Assembly: GCA_013792135.1 (NCBI GenBank)
Contig: VMSP01000016.1
Span: 1 to 45,464 of the forward strand
Direction: 5' to 3'
DNA: 45,464 nt
Origin: Desulfocapsa sp.
Lineage (GTDB): Bacteria > Desulfobacterota > Desulfobulbia > Desulfobulbales > Desulfocapsaceae
The first letter of the stretch is position 1, and the number at the start of each line of letters is the position of its first letter. Below are positions 149 through 43,357 of this stretch, piece after piece. The notes under the pieces are model-generated. The model made no database searches, had not been told where the DNA came from, and saw nothing but the letters and a program-made list of their open reading frames with translations. Made by a program: the position numbers and the translations under genes.

Positions 149-1138
149 ATGGAAGATCTTCATCAAGCGGCAATCACTGCCAGCGCCGGCAATCTTTTCT
201 TTACCGCCAATCTCCATAAGATTATTGTCTTGTTCAACAGCAATAATATCCAGGCAATTTCGTTTAAAGGACCTGCCCTCTCTCAGGCAGCTTACGCTGA
301 TATCAACCTTCGATCGTTCAGCGATCTGGACGTACTGGTAGCAGAAGAAAACGCGTTTAAGGCTCGAAACCTGCTGATAGCCAACGGCTATAGCTGCGAA
401 ACGCAGATGGCAGACGATACGGAAGAGGATTTCCTCAGAAAGGAAAATTGTTTTGCAATGGTCAACAGCAGTAACAACATCAATATAGATCTGCACTGGG
501 AACTGACTGGCCGCTATTCTCTGGTGCCTCTCTACCTGGAGGATATTATTGAAAGAGCTACAACGATAAAACTTGTGGGCTGGCAATTCCCGACCCTGTC
601 AGTGGAAGACAATATCGTTTGCCTGTGCATTCATTCTTCCAAGCATTGCTGGCAACCTCTCGAAGGCATCAATAGTATCGCCGAGCTTATCCGGAACACG
701 GAAAAGATCAACTGGCTAAAAGTTATTGAACAAAGCAACTCTCTTCGAGCTCGTCGCATAGTCTTGCTCGGCCTTCTCTTGTGCCATCTTCTCTTTGACC
801 TCGAACTGCCATCACAGGTTATGGCCGAACTGAATGAAGATAAGAGATTAAGCAAACATGGAGAAAAAATCTTACGTAGGTTGACTCTTGATCCTGTTTT
901 GCAGGCACAGGATGATTATTCTTGCCAGTTCTCAACTCTCCATACCTGTATCAGAGATTCATTTCCGGACGGAATAACGCACCTTTGTCGTTTTCTTGGC
1001 CGAATTCTTTTCCGCCCCACTGCCAAGGACCGGCAGGCCTGGCCGCTGCCCTCGTCTCTGACGTTCCTCTATTACCTTTATCGGCCCCTGCGGCTGGGGT
1101 GGGAATGGGGACGAAGAAGACTGAGGATTGGAGATTGA
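149..1138 (+). CDS. Nucleotidyltransferase family protein, 5'-truncated by an IS element
   Basis: The protein has a nucleotidyltransferase fold of the NTP_transf_5 type. The FKGPAL motif at residues 39-44 leads into RSFSDLDVLV (residues 55-64), with the metal-binding Asp pair D59/D61, and a later acidic/aromatic motif IDLHW near residue 110. Family members usually carry a helical N-terminal region before the KGPA motif. Here only about 38 residues precede it, and the in-frame codons upstream reach a TGA at 137-139 inside the IS end, so the original start has been lost. Members of this family occur in some lasso-peptide clusters as tailoring enzymes, which fits the lasso genes 1.8 kb downstream. 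Whether the remnant is translated is unknown. The ATG at 149 has no good ribosome-binding site. Confidence 0.7.
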   Translation: MEDLHQAAITASAGNLFFTANLHKIIVLFNSNNIQAISFKGPALSQAAYADINLRSFSDLDVLVAEENAFKARNLLIANGYSCETQMADDTEEDFLRKENCFAMVNSSNNINIDLHWELTGRYSLVPLYLEDIIERATTIKLVGWQFPTLSVEDNIVCLCIHSSKHCWQPLEGINSIAELIRNTEKINWLKVIEQSNSLRARRIVLLGLLLCHLLFDLELPSQVMAELNEDKRLSKHGEKILRRLTLDPVLQAQDDYSCQFSTLHTCIRDSFPDGITHLCRFLGRILFRPTAKDRQAWPLPSSLTFLYYLYRPLRLGWEWGRRRLRIGD

Positions 1139-1475
1139 CGACTTTTTGCGAGGCCATCGATAATGGGTTGTTCAGCTCAATGGACCGATGTGGCAGTGGT
1201 CCGTGTGGAGGTGTAACAGGATACTTGTCACAAACGGTTCCTATTTATTGTGGCGCAGGAGGCAAAATCAAACGGGATACGTTTTAGCAGCCACCTTTTT
1301 CGAAATATTTTCAGGCACCTATGTTTGCCTTCCTCTTGCTGTCTATCTGAAGATTTGACTTTCTTTTATCTAAAACATTGATTATCGCTCTTTAAAGAGA
1401 TAGGCTTTTTAGTAAGTTTTATCAGTCTTTTTTGTGGAATATTTAAACGAGCATGAAAGAGGGAAAGAGGAGAAG
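1139..1475. other. Intergenic region; only a short palindrome seen
   Basis: No convincing gene is present. A perfect 12-bp palindrome, ctctttaaagag, lies at 1388-1399, upstream of the diguanylate cyclase, and could be an operator or a chance dyad. No clear -10/-35 pair or riboswitch was recognised. Confidence 0.3.
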
Positions 1476-2684
1476 ATGGGAATAGATATTCACAATACTG
1501 TCTGCAAATGTTTACATGATTATCCTAAAGTTGAAGAACTTATAGTTGAGCTTAACCGGCTGATAAGTATGGAGGGCGCAACTTGCTGTCAGGCCATTTT
1601 GCGGTTACTGGCCCATATTGAGATACCTCCCGAACAGGCCGAAAAATGCTGGCAGGATATTATGTTTCATCGAGGGGTAATGTCGTCGTCTATTGGCCGG
1701 CCTGTCAGTCTGCAGACTGCTATTTGCGATTTTTTCAGCTCCATCCAGAAAAACCTCACCCAGCCCACGGTTATCGAGATAAAAGATTTTGATGAGATAG
1801 TGCGCCAGTCTAATCTGGATTTTCTGACAGGGTTGAGCAACCGGGCCACATTGGACAATGTGTTTGAGAAGGAAATGGCTCGGACGCAACGCTACCATAG
1901 AGAATTGTCACTGTTATTTCTTGATATTGATGATTTTAAACAAATTAATGATACTTTTGGCCATCAGGCAGGGGATATTGTTTTACAGGAAATTGGAGCC
2001 ATCATCAATCGGGAGAAAAGACTGGAAGATACAGCCGGTAGATATGGTGGCGAAGAGTTTATGGTGATTTTACCTGATACCTCTAAATTAGACGCCTTGA
2101 TTTTTGCCGAAAGAGTCAGGGTGCAGATAGAACAACTGGCGTTGCCTTATGGTGACAAAGTAATTCGTACCACTATCAGTGGCGGACTGGCGTTCTGGCC
2201 CGGTGATGCCACGGACAAGGGCGCATTGATTTCCTGCGCTGATCAGGCACTTTATAAGGCAAAAAGTGATGGTAAGAATCTAATTTCTCTTTTTGGCTCT
2301 GAGAAACGGCGTTATATTCGTATTGATTTTGCCAGGCAACTCGATGTAAAGATTTTACAATTCGCACAAGACAATCTCGCCAACACTACAGGTATAAATA
2401 TATCCCTTGGTGGTGTTTTGTTTGAAAGCGACAAGCAGATTGCCATGGGTACTCACCTTGAAGTGACCGCCCATTTTGATGAAGATAACCTCCTAGTTTT
2501 TCAGGGTCAGGTCAGAAGGCTTGAATGTTTGGCCAATGATAAATATGAGATTGGTGTCTCTTTTTCACATCAGGACGATGCCTCTACCCATAACTTGGCA
2601 CGATATATCACCAGGTATCTCGATCATTGTGGTAAAAGTTGCCCTACAACAGATCATGTCATGCAAGCAGTTTTGCTATCCTAA
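1476..2684 (+). CDS. Diguanylate cyclase with C-terminal PilZ domain
   Basis: The protein makes cyclic di-GMP from two GTP. The GGDEF domain spans roughly residues 110-275, with the active-site loop GGEEF at 191-195. An inhibitory I-site, RLED, lies five residues before it (182-185), so feedback inhibition is expected. A PilZ domain follows, with RRYIR at 278-282 and NISLGG at 308-313, the c-di-GMP-binding RxxxR and (D/N)xSxxG motifs. One polypeptide should therefore both make and sense the messenger. The N-terminal 110 residues match no domain I recognise, and there are no membrane segments, so it is probably cytoplasmic. The ATG at 1476 is preferred over an in-frame GTG at 1434 because aaagaggag sits just upstream. 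It may regulate the exopolysaccharide genes nearby, but that is inference. Confidence 0.92.
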   Translation: MGIDIHNTVCKCLHDYPKVEELIVELNRLISMEGATCCQAILRLLAHIEIPPEQAEKCWQDIMFHRGVMSSSIGRPVSLQTAICDFFSSIQKNLTQPTVIEIKDFDEIVRQSNLDFLTGLSNRATLDNVFEKEMARTQRYHRELSLLFLDIDDFKQINDTFGHQAGDIVLQEIGAIINREKRLEDTAGRYGGEEFMVILPDTSKLDALIFAERVRVQIEQLALPYGDKVIRTTISGGLAFWPGDATDKGALISCADQALYKAKSDGKNLISLFGSEKRRYIRIDFARQLDVKILQFAQDNLANTTGINISLGGVLFESDKQIAMGTHLEVTAHFDEDNLLVFQGQVRRLECLANDKYEIGVSFSHQDDASTHNLARYITRYLDHCGKSCPTTDHVMQAVLLS

Positions 2685-2890: not shown

Positions 2891-2971
2891 AACTTATGCA
2901 CAAACTAAACCAGAGAATGGTGGGTATGATCCTTCTTTATTTTTCCTTTTGCGTTCTTGTGCCCATTTGTC

Positions 2972-3952
2972 ATGTTACCGGTTATCGAACTTTCTCAGAT
3001 CAGTAAATCCTTTACAGAGCGCAACTGGAAGACTTTCCTGTTCCGAAAATCTTACCCGGTACAGGCCTTGGAGGACGTTTCCCTTACTGTAAATAAGGGA
3101 GAGATTATGGGGTTGTTAGGTCCGAACGGGGCAGGAAAAACAACGCTTATCAAGATTCTTGCCACCTTGATCACCCCTGACCTGGGCAGCGGCACCATCT
3201 GCGGATTTGACATCTGTAGCCAATCGCATCGTGTCCGGGAGAAAATAGGGTTGGTCAGCACCAACGACCGGACCTTTTACTGGCGGCTCAGCGGTCGGGA
3301 CAACCTCAGTTTCTTCGCCAGCCTTTACAACCTCTGGGGCCAGGACAAAACACAGCAGATTGAGAAGGTCCTTGAGCTGACCGACATGACAGACAAGGCG
3401 GACTATCGCTTCATGTCCTATTCTGCAGGCCAGAAACAGCGGCTGGCCATTGCCAGGGCCATGCTCTCCGAGCCCGAGATCCTGCTGCTGGATGAGGCGA
3501 CTGCAAGTCTTGACCCCATTGCCGCTCGCAGCCTGCTTGATCTGACCCGAAACACCCTCGCCGCTAAAGAACAAAAAACCATCCTCTGGTGCACTCATAA
3601 TCTGACCGAGGCTGATGAGATCTGCGACCGGTTGACTATCCTCCATCAAGGCCGGATCTTGCAAAGTGGCACTCCAGCCGAGATTCATAACTGTCTGGGG
3701 TATAAGCAGAGTTATCGGCTAGTGGTGGATAGCCTGCACCCATCTCTGCAAAACCAGCAGGATTATCAACCTATTTTGGAGAAAGAGCAGGGAGCATATG
3801 CCTGCACCCTGACCATTGACCACGCCAGGGTTCCCGAGCTGCTTAAATCGCTTGCCGGGAGTGGAGTTGGGGTTTATGAATGCAGTCAGATTAAAAGACC
3901 GTTGGAAGCGGCCTTTACCGAACTTGTTTTACGAAAGCAGAAAGGTTCTTGA
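2972..3952 (+). CDS. ABC transporter ATP-binding protein, lasso-peptide export
   Basis: This is the nucleotide-binding subunit of an ABC-2 type exporter. Walker A GPNGAGKTT lies at residues 50-58, a slightly variant signature SAGQKQR at about 151-157, and Walker B ILLLDE at about 170-175, followed by the H-loop region (WCTHNL). About 100 residues follow the catalytic core, as is common in exporter ATPases of this type. The permease gene follows after 10 bp and the lasso maturation genes come next, so the likely role is export of, or immunity to, the lasso peptide. The ATG at 2972 is chosen over a TTG at 2957, since the usual family start lies just before the IELSQISKSF strand. No strong Shine-Dalgarno is seen for either. 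Confidence 0.88.
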   Translation: MLPVIELSQISKSFTERNWKTFLFRKSYPVQALEDVSLTVNKGEIMGLLGPNGAGKTTLIKILATLITPDLGSGTICGFDICSQSHRVREKIGLVSTNDRTFYWRLSGRDNLSFFASLYNLWGQDKTQQIEKVLELTDMTDKADYRFMSYSAGQKQRLAIARAMLSEPEILLLDEATASLDPIAARSLLDLTRNTLAAKEQKTILWCTHNLTEADEICDRLTILHQGRILQSGTPAEIHNCLGYKQSYRLVVDSLHPSLQNQQDYQPILEKEQGAYACTLTIDHARVPELLKSLAGSGVGVYECSQIKRPLEAAFTELVLRKQKGS

Positions 3953-3962
3953 GACAATTCTT

Positions 3963-4787
3963 ATGAGAGATATTCGTCCGCTCCTGGGAAAACCCCTGGC
4001 CTTTCTGGTCCGTGATTTTAAGATTGCGGCCAGCTATCGCCTTCAATTTGTCATGCAGGGCTTCGGTATCCTCCTGACCACCTTCAGTTTCTCATTGATT
4101 GACAAAATGTTGGGTGGCCAGAATCTGCCAGCGCTTTCGCCTTACGGTGGAGATTTTTTTGCCTTTGTTCTCATTGGAATAGCCTTTACCGATTATCTTA
4201 CCATCTCTACTACTACCTTTGCCAACGAGATCCGCAATGCCCAGATGGTAGGAACCTTGGAGGCCCTGCTGGTCACCCCCACCTCCATGACCACCATTCT
4301 TCTCTCATCCTATGGCTATAACCTCTTGGCTACCAGCCTGCGCGTTATTTTTTACCTGCTCTTCGGCACTCTGATTTTTGGGGTCCAATTGCAGTTACCC
4401 GGATTCGCCACTTTCCTGATCACCTTTTTTCTGACCCTGTTGCCCTTTTTTGGCCTGGGGCTGTTGTCGGCGGCATTTATCCTTGTCTTCAAACAGGGGA
4501 ATCCGATCAGTACCTTTCTGGCCATGAGTTCCGGACTTCTGGGCGGCATGCTCTATCCGGTAAGTGTGCTGCCGACCTGGCTTAAACCCTTTTCAGCTAT
4601 GTTGCCCATAACTCACGGACTTGAGGCCATGCGCCAGGTCCTGCTTAATGGGGCGGGGATAGTTGAAATCAGGAAACAACTGCTTATTCTTGCCCTGTTC
4701 TCAATTCTCTTGCTGGCAATTGGGATTTACGCCCTTTATGCCAGCCTTAAGGTTGCCAGGAAAGAGGGGTCGTTGTTACATTACTGA
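3963..4787 (+). CDS. ABC-2 type permease, lasso-peptide export
   Basis: This integral membrane protein of about 274 residues has around six hydrophobic segments and the ABC-2 permease layout: a first segment after RDFKIAASYRLQF, and GGMLYPVSVLPTWL near the centre of the second half. It pairs with the ATPase encoded immediately upstream. The frame is open back to 3816, overlapping the ATPase, but family members start close to the KPLAFLVRDFKIA segment, so the ATG at 3963 is preferred. Export is thus by a two-gene ABC-2 system, not the fused McjD-type exporter of microcin J25. Confidence 0.85.
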   Translation: MRDIRPLLGKPLAFLVRDFKIAASYRLQFVMQGFGILLTTFSFSLIDKMLGGQNLPALSPYGGDFFAFVLIGIAFTDYLTISTTTFANEIRNAQMVGTLEALLVTPTSMTTILLSSYGYNLLATSLRVIFYLLFGTLIFGVQLQLPGFATFLITFFLTLLPFFGLGLLSAAFILVFKQGNPISTFLAMSSGLLGGMLYPVSVLPTWLKPFSAMLPITHGLEAMRQVLLNGAGIVEIRKQLLILALFSILLLAIGIYALYASLKVARKEGSLLHY

Positions 4788-4867
4788 GGACTGAGAAGAA
4801 GGGTTAAGGTAAATTGCGGGTATCAAGTACAAGGGTTTTTAAAAAAAAAATTTAAAGGTGGATGCTG

Positions 4868-5191
4868 ATGTCATTTTCGGAAATTTTTACGTTAGAAAAC
4901 AAGGAGCTCGACAATCTTATTCTCTGTCGGGTAGAAGATAAGATCTCCACCGAGCTTGCTGGGGAGACGGTGATTCTCGATCTGGCGTCAGGGGTTTACA
5001 GTGGCCTGGATGAGGTGGGGACAACGATATGGAACCTGCTGGAACAGCCAAAGAGCTTTCGTGACGTTTGTCAGGGGGTCATGGTCGAGTATGCGGTGGA
5101 GGAGGAAGAGTGCCGTAGTGATCTTCTTACCTTTCTCAAAGATCTTGCCGATAACCAATTGATTACTGTGGAAAATGGGCCGGCTGCTTAA
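4868..5191 (+). CDS. PqqD-like leader-recognition protein (lasso B1)
   Basis: A small winged-helix protein of about 107 residues of the PqqD/RRE type. ILDLASGVYSGLDEVGTTIWNLL is the family core (strand, DxxSGxYxxLdxvGxxIWxLl), followed by helices ending in LADNQLI. In lasso biosynthesis the separate B1 protein binds the YxxP leader motif and presents the precursor to the B2 protease. It overlaps B2 by 17 bases, which implies translational coupling. The ATG at 4868 is preferred over 4862 because aaaggtgg is then correctly spaced. This split B1/B2 arrangement is typical of most lasso clusters. Confidence 0.9.
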   Translation: MSFSEIFTLENKELDNLILCRVEDKISTELAGETVILDLASGVYSGLDEVGTTIWNLLEQPKSFRDVCQGVMVEYAVEEEECRSDLLTFLKDLADNQLITVENGPAA

Positions 5192-5609
5192 ATTCTTTCG
5201 TTTACCGGGTAGAGAAAAGGCTCTCTTTTTTTATGCCTTGTATCTGTTGGCTGCATACCGGATTCGTCTGCAGGTGACATCCACGCAACAACTTTTCAAC
5301 CGTGTTCAGAAGTTGTCACGTGAACGATATGTCCCCGAGCCAAGCCCTGTCCCTCCGCAACGTATTGCCAGCTTGCTGAATGTTGCCGCATCGTTCATCC
5401 CTTATTCCACCTGTTTGTCCAAGGCCCTGGTCGGGCAGATTCTCTTTGCCGGCCATGGTCATAAGACCAGGCTCCATATCGGCGTGGCAAACGATGCCCA
5501 ACAGAAGTTCCATGCCCACGCCTGGCTGAGCCTGGACGACAAAATCCTGATTGGTCATCTTCCCGATCTAAAGCTGTACCGGGAGTTCCCGTCTCTTGAA
5601 AAAGAGTAG
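5175..5609 (+). CDS. Lasso leader peptidase, transglutaminase-like (lasso B2)
   Basis: A 144-residue cysteine protease of the lasso B2/transglutaminase-like family, which removes the leader peptide ATP-independently. The catalytic Cys is in STCLSKAL (C80), followed by the family pattern GHKTRLHIGV and the catalytic His in FHAHAWLS (H115), with Asp at 121-122 as probable third residue. The N-terminal hydrophobic helix (LFFYALYLLAAYRIRL) is also typical. It overlaps B1 and is followed by the precursor gene after an 80-bp AT-rich gap. All expected catalytic residues are present, so it should be active. Confidence 0.92.
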   Translation: MGRLLKFFRLPGREKALFFYALYLLAAYRIRLQVTSTQQLFNRVQKLSRERYVPEPSPVPPQRIASLLNVAASFIPYSTCLSKALVGQILFAGHGHKTRLHIGVANDAQQKFHAHAWLSLDDKILIGHLPDLKLYREFPSLEKE

Positions 5610-5689: not shown

Positions 5690-5854
5690 ATGAAACTAAA
5701 CGTGTCTGATACTAATTCGGCTCCTAGAAAACCATACTCTTCGCCACAACTCAAATTGTATGGAGACATCCATAAGGTTACGTTGGCCCTGGCTAATGGG
5801 AAACAAACTGATGCTGTGCATGGTTCAGGACATCCAGTATCCTGTTCTGGATAA
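5690..5854 (+). CDS. Lasso peptide precursor (54 aa)
   Basis: A short gene between B2 and the kinase. Residues 16-31 match the lasso leader motif YxxPxLxxxGxxxxxT exactly (Y16, P19, L21, G25, T31). T31 is then the conserved penultimate leader residue, giving cleavage after L32. The predicted core is 22 residues. It begins ALANGKQTD, so A1 could be linked to the D9 side chain in a nine-residue ring. The 13-residue tail has two His, no aromatic residue, a single Cys (core position 20) and ends VSCSG. The ATG at 5690 has aagga eight bases upstream. An in-frame ATG at 5681 would add three residues but has no spacing from that site. The leader and its neighbours make the lasso call strong. Ring size and tail threading are inference. 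Confidence 0.9.
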   Translation: MKLNVSDTNSAPRKPYSSPQLKLYGDIHKVTLALANGKQTDAVHGSGHPVSCSG

Positions 5855-6005: not shown

Positions 6006-6893
6006 GTGAGATATACCGCTTTTAAGCTCCAGCTTTCTTCTGAAATACCCTTGCCGCTCCCCAGTGGTTCCATAGATGACCTGGTAGACATCAGGATCAA
6101 CAAGGCTGTTCTGCCTCAACTCCCCAGAAACCAAACGCTCTATGGCACTTGGTTTGAACACGGAACTCGGGAAATTCTCATAGGCTGGGAAAATTACTGT
6201 TACCTGAGGATTCACCGCGGAATAGCAATTGATGTTCAGGCTGAGCGGGATGGAAACGCCGATTTTATCAAAGATCCTATTCTTGGCCTGGCCATGGCCA
6301 TGGCCCTCCAGCAGCGCCACCATTATGTCTTGCATGGAAGCGCTGTGGCCATTGGGGATCAAGCGGCTCTGTTTATTGGTGACAAAGGGCAGGGCAAATC
6401 TACCGTGGCTGCCGGATTTCGTTCCCATGGCTATTCAATCATGGCCGACGATGTCTCTGCCGTTGATTTTTCAGGCGGTATCCCCAGGGTGAGGCCGGGG
6501 TTTCCAAAGATGAAACTCTGGCCTGAGACCTTGGAGCAGATGGGTGAAGATCCTTCTCAGTATCCGGCCATTATGCCGGGATATGATAAGAAAGTGTGTT
6601 GCCTGGCCTCATGCTTTCACAATCAGTTGGCGCCGCTGGCTGCTATTTTTGTTCTGGCCACAGGTCCACGGCTCTCAATAACTAAAATCGGCTTTACTGA
6701 GTCTATCCTGGCCCTCAATAGTAACAGGATGGGAAGCTCCTTTACCAAAGGCATGCCCCGTCAGCTTTTTTCTCGAATTTTCGACCAGTGTGCAATAATT
6801 GCTAAAACGGTGCCTATTTACCAGCTCACCAGACCTCGTGATTTCCGTCTTCTTTCTGAAACGGTGAAAAAAATAGCGGCTATCCTCACCTGA
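6006..6893 (+). CDS. HPr-kinase-like protein of the lasso cluster
   Basis: A 295-residue protein related to HPr kinase/phosphorylase. The P-loop GDKGQGKST lies at residues 125-133, followed by MADDVSAV (147-153) with the Asp pair typical of the family. The LHGSAV motif before the P-loop is also characteristic. In several lasso clusters (the paeninodin type) such a kinase phosphorylates a Ser side chain at the C-terminus of the precursor. Here the core ends S-C-S-G, so Ser at core position 19 or 21 are candidate targets. The precursor lacks a terminal Ser, so the site is uncertain. The start is GTG at 6006 with agga four bases upstream. The cyclase gene follows after 200 bp. Confidence 0.85.
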   Translation: MRYTAFKLQLSSEIPLPLPSGSIDDLVDIRINKAVLPQLPRNQTLYGTWFEHGTREILIGWENYCYLRIHRGIAIDVQAERDGNADFIKDPILGLAMAMALQQRHHYVLHGSAVAIGDQAALFIGDKGQGKSTVAAGFRSHGYSIMADDVSAVDFSGGIPRVRPGFPKMKLWPETLEQMGEDPSQYPAIMPGYDKKVCCLASCFHNQLAPLAAIFVLATGPRLSITKIGFTESILALNSNRMGSSFTKGMPRQLFSRIFDQCAIIAKTVPIYQLTRPRDFRLLSETVKKIAAILT

Positions 6894-7093
6894 GTTATCT
6901 CTTCTTCATAAAATTGCTTCAGGCTGAGCAAAGAACTGCCACATTTCACCACATCCTCCAAGCCTATCTTTCTGGTAGCCTTCAATCTACAATTTTTTAT
7001 TGCCTTGCATGTCCATATAAGAGGATAACTCGTTGAGAGTAGTTGCCGATATTTCTGATAGACATTTATAAATAAGTGGAGCATCATGTTGCC

Positions 7094-9007
7094 ATGAGCG
7101 GAATTGCAGGTATCTTTTATTTGAATGACAGGCCGGTTGTAACGGAACAGCTTGAGCGCATGCGGCAGGCTCTCGCTCACCGGGGGCCAGATGGGTATCG
7201 TCTATGGAAATCCTGTCAAGTGGGTCTTCTCCACTGTCGGCTGAATACTACTCCTGAATCTATTAAAGAACAGCTCCCGGAAGAAGATATGCAGTCCGGC
7301 TTGGTTATTACTGCCGATGCCCGGCTGGATAACCGCCAAGAGCTTCTTGCTGTTTTTTCCCCCTCTCTTCATCAAGCTGGATCTGTCCCGGACAGTAAAT
7401 TGATCCTTGCTGCCTATCAAAAGTGGGGGGCAGACTGTGCGGCTCATCTTCTTGGTGACTTTGCCTTCGTAATCTGGGACAAAGCTCAAAACCGGCTCTT
7501 CTGCGCTCGAGATCATATGGGGGTAAAACCCTTTTATTATTATCGTTCCGATTCATTCGTTAGCTTTTCTACCGAGATCAAAGGACTGCTCTGCAACCAT
7601 GAAGTCAAACAGGACCTCAATGAAGACCGGATTGCAGACTTTATAGCCGTCATGGCCTTGGATAACAGTTCTACTTTTTTCAAACAGATCCTGCGTCTCC
7701 CCCCTGGCCATTCCCTCATAGTCCACCCTGGAAGAATTAGTCAGCCAATATCTTACTGGCAACCACGACCCGCGCAACTACCTGTATTAAACAGGGACGA
7801 ATACGCCGAAGCCTTCAGGGAGATTTTTACAGAGTCTGTCCGCTGTCGCCTTCGTTCTGCTTTTCCTGTAGGCACCTTTCTTAGTGGTGGACTTGACTCA
7901 TCCTCCATTACCTGCATGGCAGCAGGCCCCCTTAAACAGTGCCTATCCGGACCTCTCCACTCTTTTTCCGGTGTCTTTGACACAATGACCAGCTGTGACG
8001 AACGCCATTATTTTCAACCGGTGCTCGATCGTTACCAGATTACTCCTCATTTTCTTCTGGCGGATCAGCTGGATGGCCCTCAGGCCTTTGACAAGATGGT
8101 GGAGTGGGAGGACGAGCCTTTTTTTGCCCCCCACTTCTTCATGGGATTGAATCTGCTTCAACTCATGCAGGGCCTTGGTGTTCGGACCCTTCTCGATGGT
8201 CATGATGGCGACTCGGCAGTTTCCTATGGGTATACGCTACTCCCGGAGCTGGCCAGGAAGGGAAAGTGGCTGCAGTGGTTCACAGAGATGCGGGCACTCA
8301 ACTCTTCCTCCAGAAAAGCGTTGGCAAAGTACCCTGTCAGGATAATGAAAGATGTTCTTTACCGAAAAATCCCTCAGTGGCTGTTCACCCCCCAGTATCA
8401 AAAAGATTTCCTGAAAACGGTGGAAGAACTTAATCCGGATCTGGTAAAAAAAACGGACATAAAAGGCCGCCTTCTTCGTCACATTCTTCAATTGCCGAAT
8501 TATCAGCAAGATGAACAGACCTTTCATCTTCTTAATATCATCCAGCCCATTCATTCGACCGCATTGGAGTTTATGAATAAAACCGCGGCAAGATTCCATG
8601 TCGAGCAGCGGTTGCCTTTTTTTGACAAACGGCTTATTGAATTCTGCCTGGCTCTGCCTGCCGATCAAAAACTTTATCAGGGACTCAATCGCCATGTTTG
8701 CCGCCATGCCCTACGAGACATCTTGCCTGAGAGTATCAGGCAAAGGAAATCAAAAACCGATTTTAGTCCTAACCTGGTGAACACTTTTTCTGAACAAACT
8801 TCCAATTGGCTCGCATTGTCCTTTGCATCGCTTCCTGATTGTACGTTTAACTATATAGACAAAAGTAAGTTAGTTATGGCCTATAACCGGTTCAATGATC
8901 CAAAAAACACCATGCGACAGGTTGAATTGTTTTTTATTCTTCGGGCATTATCACTTGGAAAATGGCTGCATAAAATGGATGGAGGCAGGGAGCATGAAAC
9001 AGGGTAG
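7094..9007 (+). CDS. Lasso macrocyclase, asparagine-synthetase-like (lasso C)
   Basis: The protein resembles AsnB, with an N-terminal Ntn-amidotransferase domain (about residues 1-215) and a C-terminal ATP-pyrophosphatase domain with SGGLDSS at 264-270. In lasso biosynthesis it adenylates the ring Asp/Glu side chain and closes the isopeptide bond with the core N-terminus. The residue after the initiator Met is Ser (MSGIAGIF), where an active glutaminase needs Cys. The amidotransferase domain is therefore probably non-catalytic, as expected for a cyclase that does not use glutamine. The ATG at 7094 is chosen over GTG at 7076 because it restores the MSGIAG family start. It is 637 residues, normal for the family. 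Confidence 0.92.
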   Translation: MSGIAGIFYLNDRPVVTEQLERMRQALAHRGPDGYRLWKSCQVGLLHCRLNTTPESIKEQLPEEDMQSGLVITADARLDNRQELLAVFSPSLHQAGSVPDSKLILAAYQKWGADCAAHLLGDFAFVIWDKAQNRLFCARDHMGVKPFYYYRSDSFVSFSTEIKGLLCNHEVKQDLNEDRIADFIAVMALDNSSTFFKQILRLPPGHSLIVHPGRISQPISYWQPRPAQLPVLNRDEYAEAFREIFTESVRCRLRSAFPVGTFLSGGLDSSSITCMAAGPLKQCLSGPLHSFSGVFDTMTSCDERHYFQPVLDRYQITPHFLLADQLDGPQAFDKMVEWEDEPFFAPHFFMGLNLLQLMQGLGVRTLLDGHDGDSAVSYGYTLLPELARKGKWLQWFTEMRALNSSSRKALAKYPVRIMKDVLYRKIPQWLFTPQYQKDFLKTVEELNPDLVKKTDIKGRLLRHILQLPNYQQDEQTFHLLNIIQPIHSTALEFMNKTAARFHVEQRLPFFDKRLIEFCLALPADQKLYQGLNRHVCRHALRDILPESIRQRKSKTDFSPNLVNTFSEQTSNWLALSFASLPDCTFNYIDKSKLVMAYNRFNDPKNTMRQVELFFILRALSLGKWLHKMDGGREHETG

Positions 9008-9083
9008 TAACGCGAACATACTTCCTCAGTCCCGTGATTTTTTTCTGGAGGTCTATTTTTTACTAGAGATCTCCCCTCAATGA
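8994..9083 (+). CDS. Possible 29-residue coupled small ORF
   Basis: The ATG at 8994 is preceded by ggaggcaggg with good spacing. It overlaps the end of the cyclase gene by 14 bases, and its TGA overlaps the ATG of the next gene (ATGA at 9080-9083). The product (MKQGSNANIL...) has no recognised domain. It could be a real small protein, or merely a device coupling translation of the VanZ-like gene, which lacks its own ribosome-binding site. It may equally be chance. Confidence 0.3.
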   Translation: MKQGSNANILPQSRDFFLEVYFLLEISPQ

Positions 9084-10186
9084 AGTTTCCAACACTTCTC
9101 ACCCTGTTGCTCTTTGTTCTCGCTTCGCTTTTTACCATAGGTTGCAATACCCTGATTGAAAAATATCATAATATCAGTCAGCAGCTTCTGGAAAACCCGC
9201 TCTTTTCCTATGGGGTACGAGGATGGCAAACAAAGGAGTCTCCTTCCAGTGAAATTGTGCTTCAAGATGGCACAGTTACTCTGAAATCCTCGGACAAAGA
9301 GGGGCAGAAAGAAATATTCCAAGAAGTAAAAGGCCAGAATCAGGATGCCATATTTCGCCTTGAGGCCGAGCTGCAAACCACGGATGTGGCCGCCGGTGAA
9401 AAGAACTGGAACAAGGCCAGGTTGCTGCTTGTTCCGATTATTGACGGCAAGGCCAGTTATAAACTGAAACACGTTGCGGCCTCCCTTGTCGGAACCAAGG
9501 GCTGGAAAAGGGTTAGTGAAGTTTTCTATTTCCCCAAGGGGTGTCAAGCGATACGGGTTGTGGCGCAGATGAGTCGCTGCAGTGGGGAATTTTCGCTGCG
9601 GAATCCCACGCTCTACAGGGTAGTGGAAACCCCACTCTTCTCCTTCAGTAAATGGCTGGTTATCCCTCTCTGGGCCGTCTTTTTCTTTTCCATGTTTCAG
9701 CCCTGTCTGCGAGGTAAAGGTAACTTTTTTTCCAAGATGCTTTTGGTCCTGACCGTGGTTGCCATTGTCGCTGGAACCACCATCCCCGGTCGGTTTAAAA
9801 ACGACTTACGCGATGACCTGCTTGATGAAACAAGGAGCTATACCACATCGGTCCAAGAGACGGTAAAAGAGGTGCTGGTGGCTGAGCATGTTCGTCCCTT
9901 CGACCTACCGAAGGTGGATATCACCAAGCTGGCCCATTTCTTTCTTTTTGCCCTGTTAACCCTCCTTCTTCTGCTCACAAATCCGGAGATATCAGTCAAG
10001 TTGCTGTTGCTCAACCTTTTCCTGGTGGCCTGTTCTACCGAGCTGATTCAATTGTATGTGGAGGGCCGCTCGCCTCTGATCAGAGACGTGGTGATTGATA
10101 TGGCAGGAGGGGGAATGACCGTGGTCCTTTGGTACCTGACAATGGTCAGGAAGCGAACGGGGGAAGCCAAGAACGGGATGTGCTGA
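9080..10186 (+). CDS. VanZ-like membrane protein
   Basis: A 368-residue membrane protein. An N-terminal hydrophobic segment (residues 5-22) leads to an extracytoplasmic region of about 160 residues with beta-rich composition resembling a carbohydrate-binding fold. A membrane domain follows. Its C-terminal third has the VanZ pattern: KLAHFFLFALLT, then STELIQLYVEGRSP, then RDVVIDMAGGG. VanZ-like proteins occur near exopolysaccharide loci and in antibiotic-tolerance settings, but their biochemical role is poorly defined. It is the last + strand gene before the convergent exopolysaccharide operon and may belong to either region. The residue Cys22 is not in a good lipobox, so lipidation is doubtful. 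Confidence 0.7.
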   Translation: MKFPTLLTLLLFVLASLFTIGCNTLIEKYHNISQQLLENPLFSYGVRGWQTKESPSSEIVLQDGTVTLKSSDKEGQKEIFQEVKGQNQDAIFRLEAELQTTDVAAGEKNWNKARLLLVPIIDGKASYKLKHVAASLVGTKGWKRVSEVFYFPKGCQAIRVVAQMSRCSGEFSLRNPTLYRVVETPLFSFSKWLVIPLWAVFFFSMFQPCLRGKGNFFSKMLLVLTVVAIVAGTTIPGRFKNDLRDDLLDETRSYTTSVQETVKEVLVAEHVRPFDLPKVDITKLAHFFLFALLTLLLLLTNPEISVKLLLLNLFLVACSTELIQLYVEGRSPLIRDVVIDMAGGGMTVVLWYLTMVRKRTGEAKNGMC

Positions 10187-10222: not shown

Positions 10223-12559
10223 CTACCGTGATAACTTTTCCAGACGTTGACGGATCTTTTCATTTCCAGGCTCAAGCATCAGGGCCTGCTCATACTCTTC
10301 TTTTGCCCGGTAAACGATACCTTGTTTTACATAGTAATCACCTAGAATAAGGTGAAAGGGTGCGTGATCCGGATGGGCTTCGATTCCCCGTCTCAGGACA
10401 TCAAGTGCCTTCTCCTGTTCCCGCTGCTTCTGAAGGAATGAGTAGAGCTGAAGAAAATACCAGGGCTTGCTTTCCTCGTTTCGTTTGAGAAAATCCAGGG
10501 CATGGCTCCGGTAATAAAGGGCATCCTCCAGGTTTCCAAGATCCTCGGAGAGTTTACCAAATTGGATCCAGGCTTCAACCGTCTCCGGCAGGACGGCCGA
10601 GACCTCTTCTCTGCTGAAATGATAGCTGATAAGAAGAGGCGGCATATCCCGGGCAAGAGAGGGGGACTGGCTGGTTTTCTCTTTAAGGACTTTGACTGCC
10701 TCGGCCCTCTGGTTATTAAGCAGCAACCACTCCGCCCAGGTCAAAATGATGTTTTTCTTATCCTGTGCTCGTTTGTACCCCTCTGCCATCAAGATAGAAG
10801 CCTGATCCCTGGAATCGGGGCCCAGGGTCAACGCCAGGCGCTGAAGATAGACTCCTTCCAGGGGATCTTTCATGGCCGCATGGAGATAACTCGTCAATGT
10901 CTCTGGCCCCAAATTCTGGAAACGGGTAATATTCCCCTCGCTGTATGAGTAGCGTCCCTCCAGAGGATCCTGGCGAACAGCACGTCTGGCCGTGTTCATC
11001 ATCTCGTTCAATTTTTCCCGGGGAAGCTGGGGATTGAGGTAGATATCGGCGACCTCCTTATAATTTGAGGCAGCGAGGAGAACCCCCCCCTGGACCATCA
11101 CAGTCAGCGTCAGGAGAGGAAGAACTGTAATAAGGGTTACAACGGACCACCTGCTGTTGATAGGTGTCAGGAGGGTGGAACTGGTCCGGTAATGGTGTCG
11201 GGTATTAGCGGCCGCAACTACAAGGCCGCAGAGAAAATAGAAATAAAGGCCGTTGGCCCCGTTGTGCATATTGAAATCGGTTACACTGTGCAGCAAAATG
11301 GAAACGAGGCCGGTTAGAGCACCGACTGTGAGCAGGATGGTATAAAGGTCCCTTCTTTTGGTCAGCTGCTTGAACCCGTGCCAAAGGATGGCTATAACAA
11401 ACCAGGCTGCCAGAGAAAAGCCAATGACGCCGCCGTCGGTGAACAGCTCGATATAATCGTTATGGGCATGATCAAAGATAGCAGAACCAGGCATTGTGCT
11501 GTACTGGGGATAGGTGTGGATAAAAGTGCCGAACCCCGAACCGGTAAAGAAAAAATCACGGATGATCGCCCCGCAGTCCTGCCATACCAAGAGTCGTCCG
11601 TCGGCGATACCTCCGGTTTCTGTAAATGCCTTGTTGAATTTACCAATAATGGGATCCCAGCCAAACCAGGTGACGGCCAGAATTCCACAGGTGAAGATAA
11701 GGACCGGCAATAGACGAATGGTGCCTTTTTGCTTTTTCGTCATGAGCAGGGTAAAAAAAAGCAGTCCTAAGGTTATGGCTATCATTCCGCCCCGGGAAAG
11801 GGCGATGAAGACCGAAACCATGATCAAGATCACTCCAAAGCCCAGAAAAAAGTGTAGGTTGCTTCCGGGCATGGAGAAGAGAGAGACTACTTTTGCCCTC
11901 AACGATTCACGGTAATGAACATTGGGTCGATGGAAGAGAAATAGTGCCAGGGCCAGGGGGCAGAGCATCTCCATAAATCCGGCGTAATGGTTGTGATAGA
12001 TCCATGGTCCTACAGTTCCTGAATTTGCGGGAGTTGGGCGAAACCAGTAAATTGCATGGGGTGAGCTGAACTTTTGGATAATAGCCAGAAAGGCTATGCC
12101 GATCGCCAGCCAGACAACGACTTTTACTGTTTTACGAAGAGTCTCTCCTTCACGGAGCATCTGCACGGTCAGGATGTAGAAAAGGGAATAACAGGAGATC
12201 CGCAGAAATTCGAGCAGGGTCGCTTTTTGATTGACCGTGAGGGGAATCCAGTTGTTGCCGTGATCCAGCGAGAGTAATGGGGCATAGGCCTGGAAGATAT
12301 CCGGGGCCATAATCCGGACCAGAGAGGTCGGCAACGGTAAAAGCTGGAGCAGCATAAAGCCCAGGAGAAGGAGCAAAGGGAATATGCCGGGTACCTTTAA
12401 AAAAGAGCTGGAATTTATTCGTAGGTGAGAGAAGTAAAGCAGGGCAGTGATGCAAATCAGCAATTGGACAATTGCGATAGACCACGTCTCCACCGAGCCA
12501 AAAGCCAGGGGAGCAAAGATCAGAGTGGTGATAAAGAGAAAGAATGAGATTTTCTTCAT
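10223..12559 (-). CDS. O-antigen ligase/polymerase (Wzy_C family) with C-terminal TPR tail
   Basis: A 778-residue inner-membrane protein. The first 450 residues form about a dozen hydrophobic segments with the family landmarks YHNHYAGFMEMLCPLAL and, after a periplasmic loop, GSGFGTF then HAHNDYIELFTDGGVIGF. These are typical of WaaL/Wzy enzymes that transfer or polymerise lipid-linked glycan in the periplasm. After one more membrane segment (about 475-495) comes a soluble helical tail with TPR-like repeats (FHLILGDYYVKQGIVYRAKEEYEQALMLEPG near the end). It is the last gene of the exopolysaccharide run and is separated from cpsB by a 300-bp gap full of repeats. Confidence 0.88.
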   Translation of the reverse strand: MKKISFFLFITTLIFAPLAFGSVETWSIAIVQLLICITALLYFSHLRINSSSFLKVPGIFPLLLLLGFMLLQLLPLPTSLVRIMAPDIFQAYAPLLSLDHGNNWIPLTVNQKATLLEFLRISCYSLFYILTVQMLREGETLRKTVKVVVWLAIGIAFLAIIQKFSSPHAIYWFRPTPANSGTVGPWIYHNHYAGFMEMLCPLALALFLFHRPNVHYRESLRAKVVSLFSMPGSNLHFFLGFGVILIMVSVFIALSRGGMIAITLGLLFFTLLMTKKQKGTIRLLPVLIFTCGILAVTWFGWDPIIGKFNKAFTETGGIADGRLLVWQDCGAIIRDFFFTGSGFGTFIHTYPQYSTMPGSAIFDHAHNDYIELFTDGGVIGFSLAAWFVIAILWHGFKQLTKRRDLYTILLTVGALTGLVSILLHSVTDFNMHNGANGLYFYFLCGLVVAAANTRHHYRTSSTLLTPINSRWSVVTLITVLPLLTLTVMVQGGVLLAASNYKEVADIYLNPQLPREKLNEMMNTARRAVRQDPLEGRYSYSEGNITRFQNLGPETLTSYLHAAMKDPLEGVYLQRLALTLGPDSRDQASILMAEGYKRAQDKKNIILTWAEWLLLNNQRAEAVKVLKEKTSQSPSLARDMPPLLISYHFSREEVSAVLPETVEAWIQFGKLSEDLGNLEDALYYRSHALDFLKRNEESKPWYFLQLYSFLQKQREQEKALDVLRRGIEAHPDHAPFHLILGDYYVKQGIVYRAKEEYEQALMLEPGNEKIRQRLEKLSR

Positions 12560-12604
12560 GGGAGACTTAGATTTGCATCAATGTTGTCCGGTTAGGTTTT
12601 TAGT

Positions 12605-12718
12605 CCCCCTCCTTCGTTTCAAGGAGGGGTTAGGGGTGGGTTGCCGTTACTTTGTGGTTACTTTGGAATTTCACCAATCTTAACCACCCCCAGCCCCTCC
12701 TTAAAAGAAGGAGGGGGG
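12605..12718. repeat. Palindromic MITE-like repeat, copy B
   Basis: The inverted arms at about 12605-12643 and 12682-12718 have the same layout as the copy at 2765-2890: ccccctcctt...aaggagggg, then ggggtggg, a spacer of about 40 bases, and the complement. tgtccggtt lies outside it at 12586-12594. It sits between the cpsB-like and polymerase genes and might act as a hairpin affecting operon readthrough. Confidence 0.7.
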
Positions 12719-12806
12719 AAAAAGAGCATAGAATTTGGCAAACACAGAGTGCTGTCAAAAACGGTATTTTGGTATTTTCCAAATCCCCAATAACATCGAA
12801 CCAGTT

Positions 12807-12838
12807 CCTTCTCCCTGAGAGAGTTAGGGTGAGGGGGA
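12807..12838. repeat. REP-like fragment
   Basis: ccttctccctgagagagtta followed by gggtgaggggg resembles the widespread bacterial palindromic repeat with a ctccctnngagag hairpin and a gggtgagggg tail. Only one copy is visible, so it is called by resemblance only. It lies directly downstream of the cpsB-like gene. Confidence 0.45.
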
Positions 12839-12860
12839 ATAAACGGGAAATACGTATTCA

Positions 12861-13547
12861 TCAGGCTCTGATCAGGGCGGCGGGATGATCAGTTACTAAT
12901 TTTATCGCCTGCTCCTTGCCGATGATTTTGGCTGCTTGCTTGACTGCTTTGCTGAGTATGGGTTTTCTGAAACCGGGCGCGTGGGAATCGGTCGCCAGAT
13001 AATGGACTTGATTATGTTTTAATAGATATTCTGCACAGTTTTTGGCATTTACACCCAACTCTCCTATGAGGCTCGCAGCGGTTATCTGCGCTTGCGCGCC
13101 AATATTGATAAGTGGGGCAAGTTTGAGGGGGTTGGTATAAATTGCCGGATTGCGTTCAGGATGGGCAATGACCGGAGTGATTCCTCGTTCCAGCAATTTC
13201 TCGACAATGATAGCAGAATCGATGGGGAGATAGTTGTAAGGAAACTCCAGTAGAAGGAATACGCTGTCGGCAAGACAAAATGCTTCCCCTGCGGCAAGTG
13301 CCATATGCGATGGTACTTCCGCGCCGCTAAGAATTGTAATACTGATCCCTGCAGCCTTGAGGGCCTCTCGTAACTTGGCCACCGCGCTTAACAAGCTGTC
13401 CCTGGTAAGGTTGTCAGTAAGATGAGGGGTGGCAATAATGGTATGGATACCGTCTTCGAGCGCCATCTTGGCCATGGCCAGCGAGGTCTCCATATTCGGA
13501 GATCCGTCATCAATACCTGGAAGAATATGGCAGTGCAAGTCTATCAT
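12861..13547 (-). CDS. CpsB/CapC-type tyrosine-protein phosphatase (PHP fold)
   Basis: The 228-residue protein begins MIDLHCHILPGIDDG and has IIATPH at about residue 40, the PHP-type metal-binding motifs (HxH, later H), then IAHPERN and LATDSHAPG. Such phosphatases dephosphorylate the Tyr-rich tail of the cognate bacterial tyrosine kinase, setting polymer length and export. The kinase gene lies 45 bp upstream in the same operon, which strongly supports the assignment. All metal-ligand motifs look intact. Confidence 0.9.
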   Translation of the reverse strand: MIDLHCHILPGIDDGSPNMETSLAMAKMALEDGIHTIIATPHLTDNLTRDSLLSAVAKLREALKAAGISITILSGAEVPSHMALAAGEAFCLADSVFLLLEFPYNYLPIDSAIIVEKLLERGITPVIAHPERNPAIYTNPLKLAPLINIGAQAQITAASLIGELGVNAKNCAEYLLKHNQVHYLATDSHAPGFRKPILSKAVKQAAKIIGKEQAIKLVTDHPAALIRA

Positions 13548-13592
13548 CAGCTCAGTGAATCAACCAAATCGGCCGAAATGTCAGTTGAATGA

Positions 13593-15830
13593 TTACTCTG
13601 ATTCCTTACCATAATAATCATAATAACCGTAATATCCCTCACTGCCCTTGGTTATCGTTATTCCATTGACTATAGCCCCAAGGAGGGTGATCTTCATCCC
13701 CCGCATTTTACCAAGACCGGACTCGAGCATGTCGTAAGAGGTCTTGCCGGAACGGGTAACGAGCAGGGTACCATCAACCAGCTTGCCTAGGGTCAGGCTG
13801 TCGGTAACGCTCAACAGCGGTGGAGAGTCGAGGAGGATAAAATCAAAGTTCTTGCTCATCTCATTGAGTAATAATTTCATTCTATTGGAATTGAGTAATT
13901 CCGCCGGATTTGGGGGGGGAGGGCCAGCCGGAATCATGGTCAATCCATTGACCTCAACCTGACGGAGCATATTTTGCTCGATGCTGCCGGCCAGATAGTT
14001 GCTGAGGCCGGAGCTGTTTGACACAGCGAAGAGCGAGTGCATACGCGGCCTGCGCATGTCACAGTCTATGATCAGAACCTTTTTCTCGTTTTGGGCCAGA
14101 ATCAGAGCAAGATTGTAGGTGGTAGAGGTCTTGCCTTCCTTGGGTGCCATACTGGTTAAAAGCAAGGTGCGCGGAGGATGATCCGGGGTGGACAACAGCA
14201 GGCTGGAACGGATCATCCGGTAGCTCTCCGCTAGCGGTGAGAGAGGATTATCAACGATACAAGTCTCGATTTTGCTGTTTTTATCCCGCACCTCTTCAAT
14301 TGAACCAAGCACGGTCAAGCCAAAACGCTGTTCTATATCTTTGCCGTTCTTTACGGTGTTGTCCAGGTATTCGATAAAAAAGGCCAGGCCGATGCCGCCA
14401 AAAAGTCCAAGAATCAGTCCCAGGGCCAGATTGCGTTTTTTTCTCGGTTTGTCGGCAAAGCCAGGGAGCTCGGCACTCTTCACCACCCAAATTTTTATAT
14501 CCTGGGCCTGATCCGTAACATTGACTTCTTTGATACTGGAGGTCAAAGCATCATACAGGACCCGATTCATGTCGGCTTCTCGCTTCATGATGGAGTACTG
14601 TGTAAAACGCTCGTTGACGTTGAGCATCTCCTGCTTTGTATTGGTCAGTAATTGGGTAAGATTGGTCTCTTTCGACTTAGCAAGGTTATAGGAATTTTTG
14701 GTAGCTTCGATGATCCTGTCTATCTCAAAGCGTTTTTCTTTGAGTAACATCTCCTTTTCTGCTTTGGCATTGACCATCGAAGGATGTTTGTAGCCGAATT
14801 TTTTTGAGAGGTCCTTAATGTTTTGTTCTGCAAGATAAATTTTTTCCCGCAATCCTTGTAAAATTTTGTTATCAGAAAAAATAGAGATGGTTTCGATGTT
14901 TTGATAATTCTCTCCCAAATTTTTGATCTGGGCATAGAGCGCCTCGAACTCCTTCTGTTCGGTCTGGGCTTTGGAGAGTTGACTGCTGAACTCGGCAAGT
15001 TTTTGAGGATAGACAGCAAGTTTATCTTCAACCGTGACCAGGTCATTGTCGCGCATGTATTTCTGAAGGTTAAGTTCTGATCCTTCCAGCTTTTTACTCT
15101 CTTCTTCCGCTTTGGCCGTCATCCATTTCAGGGTGTAATTGCTCGAGGATAGTTTGATTTCAAGAGTCTCATCTATATAGGCCTGGACAACCGCATCGGC
15201 GATAACCTTGGCCATGGCAGGATCTTTATCGGAGTAAAGGATAAAAACAGTCTTAGTGTTTACCACTGGATTAATTGAAAGATTGCCCTGGATAATAGAA
15301 GCGATTGTTTCTGCGTCACTTATCGGTGCGGCAGCGACCAGGAGTGGATCGTTCTCCTCTGCCAGGTTTGTTTTTTCATCATCGCTTTTAGACGGCAGGA
15401 GACCGGAAAGAAACTTTTTAACCCCACTTGTTATTGTGGAGAGAAAGCTTGGAGAATCTGCAGATTTTTCGAAAAAATAGTTCCGGTATTTAGTGTCGAG
15501 TTGGAGCTGTTTTACAACCCTGCGGGCCACATTGGGGCTTCGGATCAGTTCAAATTGGGTGGTTTGGAAATCGGGATCATAAGGGATATAATTTCCACCC
15601 CCTGTCAGCTTGTTGGAGCCAATATTTTTCTCAATGAGTACCTGGGAAGAGGCGGTGTAATAAGGAGTAGCGGTAAAGGTGGCGATAACCACTGTAAGGA
15701 AGGTTATCGCCAGGAAGGTGATAACCGTAATTTTCCGTTTGATGATGACCCGCACGTAGTCGCGGAGGTGGATTTCCTGTTCCTGGAAATCCTTAGAACC
15801 TGGCTGGTTCAAAAGATCGGTGCTTTTCAT
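13593..15830 (-). CDS. Polysaccharide co-polymerase/tyrosine autokinase (Wzc-like)
   Basis: A 745-residue inner-membrane BY-kinase. A Wzz-type N-terminus with a membrane segment (about residues 35-53) is followed by a periplasmic coiled-coil region of about 400 residues and a second membrane segment (LALGLILGLFGGIGLAFF). The cytoplasmic kinase has Walker A (APKEGKTS at about 562-569), Walker A' (DCDMRRP near 590) and Walker B (LLDSPP near 668). A Tyr cluster, GYYGYYDYYG, at about 732-741 is the autophosphorylation tail. It works with the Wza-like outer-membrane exporter upstream and the CpsB-like phosphatase downstream. Confidence 0.93.
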   Translation of the reverse strand: MKSTDLLNQPGSKDFQEQEIHLRDYVRVIIKRKITVITFLAITFLTVVIATFTATPYYTASSQVLIEKNIGSNKLTGGGNYIPYDPDFQTTQFELIRSPNVARRVVKQLQLDTKYRNYFFEKSADSPSFLSTITSGVKKFLSGLLPSKSDDEKTNLAEENDPLLVAAAPISDAETIASIIQGNLSINPVVNTKTVFILYSDKDPAMAKVIADAVVQAYIDETLEIKLSSSNYTLKWMTAKAEEESKKLEGSELNLQKYMRDNDLVTVEDKLAVYPQKLAEFSSQLSKAQTEQKEFEALYAQIKNLGENYQNIETISIFSDNKILQGLREKIYLAEQNIKDLSKKFGYKHPSMVNAKAEKEMLLKEKRFEIDRIIEATKNSYNLAKSKETNLTQLLTNTKQEMLNVNERFTQYSIMKREADMNRVLYDALTSSIKEVNVTDQAQDIKIWVVKSAELPGFADKPRKKRNLALGLILGLFGGIGLAFFIEYLDNTVKNGKDIEQRFGLTVLGSIEEVRDKNSKIETCIVDNPLSPLAESYRMIRSSLLLSTPDHPPRTLLLTSMAPKEGKTSTTYNLALILAQNEKKVLIIDCDMRRPRMHSLFAVSNSSGLSNYLAGSIEQNMLRQVEVNGLTMIPAGPPPPNPAELLNSNRMKLLLNEMSKNFDFILLDSPPLLSVTDSLTLGKLVDGTLLVTRSGKTSYDMLESGLGKMRGMKITLLGAIVNGITITKGSEGYYGYYDYYGKESE

Positions 15831-15905
15831 GACAAGATTAGGGGGAAAAGAAAGACAGAGGAAGATATGGAGCCTGATAAAGGGGCAGTTGTTTTCCAGG
15901 GTGAG

Positions 15906-16718: not shown

Positions 16719-16783
16719 GAGTAATGTCTTCTTCTTTTCTTTTTCCCTGTAATCGTCACAACTTTCCTTAAAGTGGAATTTTT

Positions 16784-18208: not shown

Positions 18209-18290
18209 TATTTTTTCCTTTTATGCTTACTTTAAGTGATTTTTTCTTCTCTTAGAGCAGAGTCGTACATTACCCCTTCCCAATAAACCA

Positions 18291-18328
18291 AAAAGGCCTT
18301 GCAGGAAATAGCAGGGCCTTTTGTTTTT
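18291..18328. terminator. Hairpin terminator, possibly bidirectional
   Basis: aaaaggccttgc (18291-18302) pairs with gcagggcctttt (18311-18322) with one G-U wobble and an 8-base loop. The + side is followed by gttttttac and the - side also carries a short T run. It lies just downstream of the small secreted-protein gene at 18363-18809 (minus strand) and upstream of the barrel gene. Confidence 0.6.
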
Positions 18329-18362
18329 TACTTTATACTAATTTTATTCTGTGGCTGAAATT

Positions 18363-18809: not shown

Positions 18810-18931
18810 TTTGCCTCCATGGAAGATCCAGAACTAACAAGAAAATAAAATAATTTAATGTATGATACATAAAAATATAGACTAAAGCAAGGGATGAAAA
18901 TAGATAAAACCACCTAAGATCAAATAAAAAT

Positions 18932-40919: not shown

Positions 40920-40945
40920 AAAACCTTATACCAGAGGCCTTCCTT

Positions 40946-42196: not shown

Positions 42197-42204
42197 GGAT
42201 GACA

Positions 42205-43203: not shown

Positions 43204-43357
43204 AGCAGGAAAGAAGATTAGGGTTCCTAAATTAATGAGTAGGTTGCGATTTGGCTTGCTGTCTTATTGGTTCTTTTTCTCCAGCTAAGCGAGATTTCGG
43301 CCCTGAAGCGAGTGATACTCTGGCGTCCATGTCCGTTGTTTGCCAGAGAAAAACGAT

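Follow-up and report, generated by a model that had tools for sequence, protein, structure and literature searches.

In the stretch of Desulfocapsa DNA analysed here (45,464 nucleotides, hereafter the window), a short reading frame lies between the gene of a leader peptidase and that of a putative peptide kinase, which raises the question as to whether it encodes the precursor of a lasso peptide and, if so, what kind of product would result from it. On the evidence set out below, the window very probably carries a lasso-peptide gene cluster, for which a maturation pathway can be proposed, and the lasso product is probably phosphorylated as well. The features concerned are collected in Table 1.

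Table 1. Position and characteristics of the genes and precursor elements considered in the window.
Feature	Coordinates	Strand	Characteristics
NTP_transf_5 nucleotidyltransferase	149..1138	+	PF14907, 162.6 bits
GGDEF/PilZ gene	1434-2684		between nucleotidyltransferase and cluster
ABC-2 exporter ATPase	2957..3952	+	
ABC-2 exporter permease	3963..4787	+	PF01061, 53.6 bits
B1, PqqD-like RiPP recognition element	4862..5191	+	PF05402, 63.3 bits (cut-off 23.4)
B2 leader peptidase	5175..5609	+	NF033537, 68.3 bits (cut-off 33); PF13471
Lasso precursor A	5690..5854	+	54 aa; leader residues 1-32, core 33-54 ALANGKQTDAVHGSGHPVSCSG
Leader motif YSSPQLKLYGDIHKVT, Thr at -2	5735..5782	+	
Predicted nine-residue ring ALANGKQTD	5786..5812	+	predicted bond from Ala1 amine to Asp9 side chain
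HprK-fold peptide kinase (predicted fold)	6006..6893	+	motif H110-G125-G128-G130-K131-S132-D148-D149
Lasso cyclase, asparagine-synthetase-like	7076..9007	+	NF033535, 674 bits (cut-off 525); PF00733

The earlier note on this DNA had placed a gene of 54 codons plus stop at the precursor position, and translation bears out both the frame and the coordinates, with the leader MKLNVSDTNSAPRKPYSSPQLKLYGDIHKVTL followed, after the predicted cut, by the core ALANGKQTDAVHGSGHPVSCSG. As translation start, ATG 5690 is preferred over the in-frame ATG 5681 owing to a GGA at -11 to -9, i.e., a spacing of 8 nt, the competing codon being immediately preceded by GG. The complete YxxPxLxxxG leader with Thr at -2, expected of a lasso precursor, is present as claimed, and the pattern Y..P.L...G.....T.[GASC].{6,7}[DE], joining leader and ring, has a single occurrence across the six frames of the window, as against none in 60 Markov-simulated windows; similar leaders are found in the relatives. 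The core itself opens with a small residue, Ala1, and possesses an acidic residue within positions 7-9, namely Asp9. Against NF033528 (lasso_cyano), the precursor aligns with the model at 23.6 bits, below the cut-off of 33, and a second NCBIfam score is likewise below cut-off (12.4 versus 19); as Pfam gave no match at all, such a precursor could escape automatic annotation. Searching the precursor against its own genome returned one real copy, two further matches (E 0.386 and 0.478) being taken as noise, and searching it against 395 genomes of the phylum returned seven at E<=0.05, its own included, some of which are lasso-like leaders.

Regarding the surrounding genes, B1, B2, the cyclase and the exporter had been described as complete around the precursor, which is indeed the case, the exporter being a pair of the ABC-2 type (DrrA/DrrB-like). 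As a PqqD-like protein, B1 is above the PF05402 cut-off but below the cut-off of 80 of the lasso-specific NF033536 (70.7 bits), and it is similar to solved lasso B1 proteins (TbiB1 5v1u, E=2.4e-12). In B2, Cys80 and His115, which we take to be the catalytic residues, are present in all 24 aligned sequences, as befits a leader peptidase; its comparison with solved structures gave no relevant match. The cyclase probably starts at ATG 7094, a Met shared by 37 of 40 aligned sequences, and its asparagine-synthetase-like character is reflected in S270 (40/40 aligned) as well as G271 and G272 (40/41). In related loci, L038-L041 among them, permease homologues adjoin an ATPase homologue (labels in L designate loci, those in G genomes). 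At E<=1e-100, the exporter ATPase was found in three of 17 genomes of the genus (its own, G477 and G474), and since all three also have a cyclase match, the exporter is probably part of the cluster. For a lasso cluster speak the scores of B2 and of the cyclase above curated lasso cut-offs, and against it those of the precursor and B1 below lasso-specific NCBIfam cut-offs, together with a kinase below the HprK models.

The earlier note had further read Ala1 and Asp9 as the two ends of a nine-residue ring and proposed a comparison of homologous precursors. Cyclase homologues, own genome included in each case, were found at E<=1e-60 within the family (24 of 93 genomes), at E<=1e-110 within the order (15 of 257) and at E<=1e-100 within the phylum (four of 395 genomes drawn from it). 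Leaders were selected by a regular expression and by an HMM for which its matches served as seed; counting the window, 27 of 38 loci yielded 32 recognisable precursors, and none was recognised in the remaining 11 (L044, L048, L053, L061, L064-L068, L070 and L081), some of which end at contig ends. The precursors of L054 and L082, with low HMM scores of 8.7 and 6.1, were retained by eye, while duplicate loci from the same place, the truncated precursor of L049 and a doubtful one in L066 were excluded from the counts; all precursor rows are mutually related, L047b and L049b being nearly identical. Core position 1 is Gly in 15 precursors, Ala in 12, Asn in two, Tyr in two and Gln in one, i.e., Gly or Ala in 27/32. 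Asp or Glu at core position 8 or 9 is likewise found in 27 of the 32 (shuffle mean 5.6; reached by 0 of 20000 shuffles), and four cores, including one from the sister cluster, lack an acidic residue at positions 7-9. Within the cyclase clade to which the window belongs, 11 of 13 precursors have Asp9, the exceptions being L038A2 (Asp10) and L043 (Asp7/Asp10). These gene-level results agree with a nine-residue ring and, as far as sequences can tell, support the reading as a lasso precursor.

As a whole, the cores differ strongly from one another. Among the 24 of the 31 other cores taken into the comparison, the best match to the window core is in L038A2 (GKQTDAVHGSGH against GRVYDATHKGH; 0.001 of shuffles, as the best of 24 comparisons), and those to L045 and L039 (ending -SCS and -PCSP) are weaker, at 0.026 and 0.033 of shuffles; even the best of these matches is short and weak. 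In L051:9879-10043, L052:9796-9960 and L038:6835-7050, the first Asp is at core position 10, with no Asp or Glu at 7-9, and the cyclases of L051 and L052 are sisters in the cyclase tree. As lasso rings range from 7 to 9 residues (PMC8498205; here and below, PMC numbers stand for excerpts of the papers), these cores would form a ten-residue ring beyond that range, unless their cleavage site is shifted. The cyclase frame of L024, at the same place as L043, contains two TGA codons.

The tail had been presented as odd for a lasso peptide. While His12, His16, Cys20, the VSCSG ending and the lack of an aromatic residue stand, the oddness was overstated, such tails being shared by relatives. Beyond residue 9, Phe, Trp and Tyr are missing from 12 of the 32 cores, so the absence of an aromatic plug is nothing special to the window, and nine of the 32 have none anywhere in the core. 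Because the tail possesses neither a bulky plug nor a disulfide partner, the product might nonetheless be cyclised without being a stable lasso, i.e., a branched-cyclic or easily unthreading peptide. A core devoid of Phe, Trp and Tyr and its lone Cys would fit with this, but such an outcome is unlikely given a full-length cyclase above the curated lasso cut-off, the occurrence of aromatic-free cores in L039, L042 and L045 among others (these three with two Cys each) and the existence of non-aromatic plugs, such as Arg in capistruin.

With a threaded lasso as the preferred reading, the fate of Cys20 has to be considered in the light of the family. Of the 32 cores, 12 have a Cys among their last five residues (shuffle mean 5.0; 2 of 20000 shuffles), as do six of the 13 precursors from the window's clade, its own among them. 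A second Cys exists in 10 of these 12 cores, which makes internal pairs the likelier meaning of the enrichment. Overall, 11/32 cores have at least two Cys and only three have exactly one (window, L058b and L047a). In L039:7605-7721, L041:5826-5936 and L045:7733-7846, Cys8 beside Asp9 is combined with a tail Cys, which suggests ring-tail disulfides; two tail Cys each are found in L042, L050 and L082, and the core of L040:11160-11279, ANEDCTNTDCAFPGATGCDDVCS, has four, possibly forming two disulfides. Lacking a ring Cys in addition to Cys20, the window core does not have the class III arrangement; as in class II, its single Cys makes an internal disulfide impossible, whereas an intermolecular one might form. 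That Cys20 is functional, either in a disulfide dimer or in a metal complex via His12-x3-His16-x3-Cys20, is distinctly improbable: although it is the sole Cys, spaced by four from H16 as H16 is from H12, in a family enriched in tail Cys, the H-x3-H-x3-C arrangement is limited to the window (1/32) and was spotted post hoc, the second Cys of most tail-Cys cores favours internal pairs, and none of the three cores of the nearest relative L038 contains a Cys. The lone C20 may rather be a remnant, or a variant form, in a family where Cys pairs are frequent, although the sister L038, itself without Cys, lends no support to this view.

By sequence, the kinase is remote from its presumed kin, with 20.0 bits against the Pfam HPr-type model (cut-off 33.3), 33.7 bits against TIGR04352 (cut-off 200) and no significant match among PDB sequences (1jb1, E 0.53). 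Its AlphaFold2 model (pLDDT 92.3) retrieved PEP carboxykinases (PEPCK) and HprK/P with Foldseek, the TM-scores to HprK/P being modest (0.3-0.6). Across 23 aligned kinases, H110, G130, K131, S132, D148 and D149 never vary, and G125 and G128 hardly do. The motif H-G-G-G-K-S-D-D is the one given for lasso-peptide kinases (PMC10368454), and its presence on a predicted HprK fold points to a kinase of the PadeK/ThcoK/BsfK type.

As to its target, kinases of the PadeK type are reported to be specific for a C-terminal Ser (PMC8498205), which speaks against a phosphorylation step in a core ending in Ser21-Gly22, and BsfK phosphorylates Ser3 of the core (PMC10368454). A terminal Ser is present in 17/32 precursors (shuffle mean 3.7; 0 of 20000 shuffles reach this), and the cores of L039 and L051 end in Ser-Pro, comparable to the Ser21-Gly22 of the window. 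Ser within the last two residues is found in 17 of 20 cores associated with the window's kinase tree group versus two of eight associated with the other (Fisher p 0.0048, uncorrected for relatedness and leaving out L047a, L047b, L080a and L080b, whose kinases are outside the tree). Since a Ser near the end thus tracks the window's kinase group, Ser21 appears the likeliest phosphosite, a best guess with about even chances of being right. It is very unlikely that the window product kept only its tail Cys, close to a penultimate phosphoserine and to H-x3-H-x3-C, for use as a thiol, a metal ligand or the covalent link of a two-lasso dimer, along with a kinase tolerant of a residue behind its target Ser. 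The possibility that the precursor-kinase block stems from a different kinase lineage was considered as well. In the kinase tree, the window groups with L043/L046/L051/L052/L083 (87/93, unstarred), while AU tests reject neither a grouping with L038 (p 0.344) nor one with the kinases of the cyclase clade (p 0.264).

Comparison with the sister cluster reveals how differently the parts of the locus have been conserved. In a cyclase tree of 41 rows, the window pairs with L038, a locus of its own genus (100/100), and both belong to a clade of 11 rows (99/97). Between window and L038, DNA identity is 85.8% over the exporter, B1 and B2 (window 3005-5603), with 86-89% identity for the proteins, and 70.2% over the cyclase (window 7094-8973), whereas the stretch of precursor and kinase gave a single blastn match of 38 bases, outside the cluster. 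The B2 stretch of L038 is followed after 33 bases by the cyclase stretch, behind which three precursors and a kinase are found; this kinase is 37% identical to that of the window, and none closer was found at E<=1e-40 among 395 genomes of the phylum or 257 of the order. The three tandem precursors of L038:6481-7247 (also L084:13481-14247; genome G477), served by one cyclase, have leaders that are alike and cores that are very different. As precursor and kinase are also behind the cyclase in the clade members L039, L040, L041, L042, L045 and L058, the displaced precursor-kinase block is probably, judging from gene order, a derived feature of the window.

The same displacement could be taken as a sign of decay, i.e., of a productless cluster having lost the Cys partner and the terminal Ser. 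The single precursor versus three in the sister, and a kinase so dissimilar to the sister's, would go along with it; intact reading frames with conserved catalytic residues, a complete leader motif and the high protein identity of exporter, B1 and B2 to their sister counterparts make it highly improbable.

In the vicinity of the cluster, homologues of the NTP5 nucleotidyltransferase are located downstream of the kinase in L043, L046 and L083, and this protein is a possible tailoring enzyme. A VanZ-family protein is encoded immediately behind the cyclase (window 9080-10186), with homologues near the cyclases of L047 and L049 and adjoining the exporter in L058. Its consideration as an immunity gene was abandoned as too loose a link, as VanZ was present in three of the 17 genomes of the genus, counting its own, but was not found in the sister genome G477 at E<=1e-20. 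Beside the lasso cluster, an exopolysaccharide locus occupies window 10223-20359 on the minus strand, with genes for a Wzy_C ligase, CpsB/CapC, a Wzz/AAA protein, an export protein, a putative beta-barrel porin and a sugar transferase. Further away, window 39654-44419, also on the minus strand, contains two ketoacyl-synthase-like and two radical-SAM-like frames (CxxxCxxC), as judged by eye from translations.

For the functional lasso cluster favoured here, the following maturation pathway can be envisaged. B1 would bind the YxxPxLxxxG leader and hand the precursor over to the kinase and to B2; the kinase would probably phosphorylate Ser21, the penultimate residue, and B2 would cut after Leu(-1), one residue past the conserved Thr(-2). 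Using ATP, the cyclase would activate Asp9 and couple it to the amine of Ala1, whereby the nine-residue ring would close round the threaded tail, which may be held by His12/His16 and a C-terminal phosphate. As the core has no second Cys, Cys20 would be either a free thiol or engaged in an intermolecular pair. The computed masses are 2091.976 Da for the linear core, 2073.965 Da for the macrolactam ([M+2H]2+ 1037.990), 2153.931 Da for its phosphorylated form and 4145.914 Da for a disulfide dimer. The product would be exported by the ABC-2 pair, its biological role being probably antagonism or signalling.

With respect to the literature, no published report of this cluster was found among titles and abstract starts, in a search mostly covering literature outside subscription, nor was a lasso product from Desulfobacterota in titles and abstract starts on the lineage, where predicted clusters may be mentioned in the texts; the excerpt of PMC13321764 gave no Desulfobacterota lasso peptides. 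The window adds a candidate phosphorylated lasso peptide from a lineage with few studied ones in the literature searched. The comparison set bears on the acceptance of a penultimate Ser by lasso kinases, the relatives on ring-tail disulfide formation between Cys8 and a tail Cys, and the window versus its relatives on the movement of a precursor-kinase block in an otherwise conserved lasso chassis. A search of plasmids for the cyclase (E<=1e-80) returned one archaeal plasmid, from the haloarchaeon Halopiger xanaduensis, where L099 (NC_015658.1 17657-31462) is an archaeal lasso-like cluster with a PqqD family protein, a B2 protein, a nucleotidyltransferase family protein and a cyclase-like asnB 36.7% identical to the window cyclase.

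Among known systems, a deltaproteobacterial lasso cluster with a kinase has already been published, namely bsf of Bradymonas sediminis, which the window resembles in its split B1/B2, cyclase, ABC transporter, HprK-like kinase, nucleotidyltransferase and kinase motif (PMC10368454). In bsf, position -2 is Ile, the ring runs from Gly1 to Asp8, core Ser3 is the phosphorylated residue and the C-terminus is Asp (PMC10368454), while the window has Thr at -2, Ala1/Asp9 and a likely C-terminal phosphosite. It is also comparable to paeninodin, ThcoK/SyanK and pseudomycoidin, where an HPr-kinase homologue acts on a C-terminal Ser that is the last residue (PMC9266682, PMC8498205), except that the window core ends in Ser-Gly. 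Pseudomycoidin also involves a nucleotidyltransferase (PMC9266682, PMC8498205); in the window, the nucleotidyltransferase gene is not adjacent to the cluster, and the likeness of the PF14907 protein to the nucleotidyltransferases of pseudomycoidin and bsf is by name only. The layout of ring Cys8 and tail Cys in L039, L041 and L045 is shared with class III lasso peptides of the BI-32169 type (PMC9266682, PMC13352647), unlike the window with its one Cys. Caulosegnins I-III, i.e., several lasso products from one enzyme set (PMC13352647), offer a parallel to what the three tandem precursors of L038 suggest, in contrast to the single precursor of the window. The cluster is thus a further example of a type already known, distinguished by its unusual single-Cys tail and its displaced precursor-kinase block.
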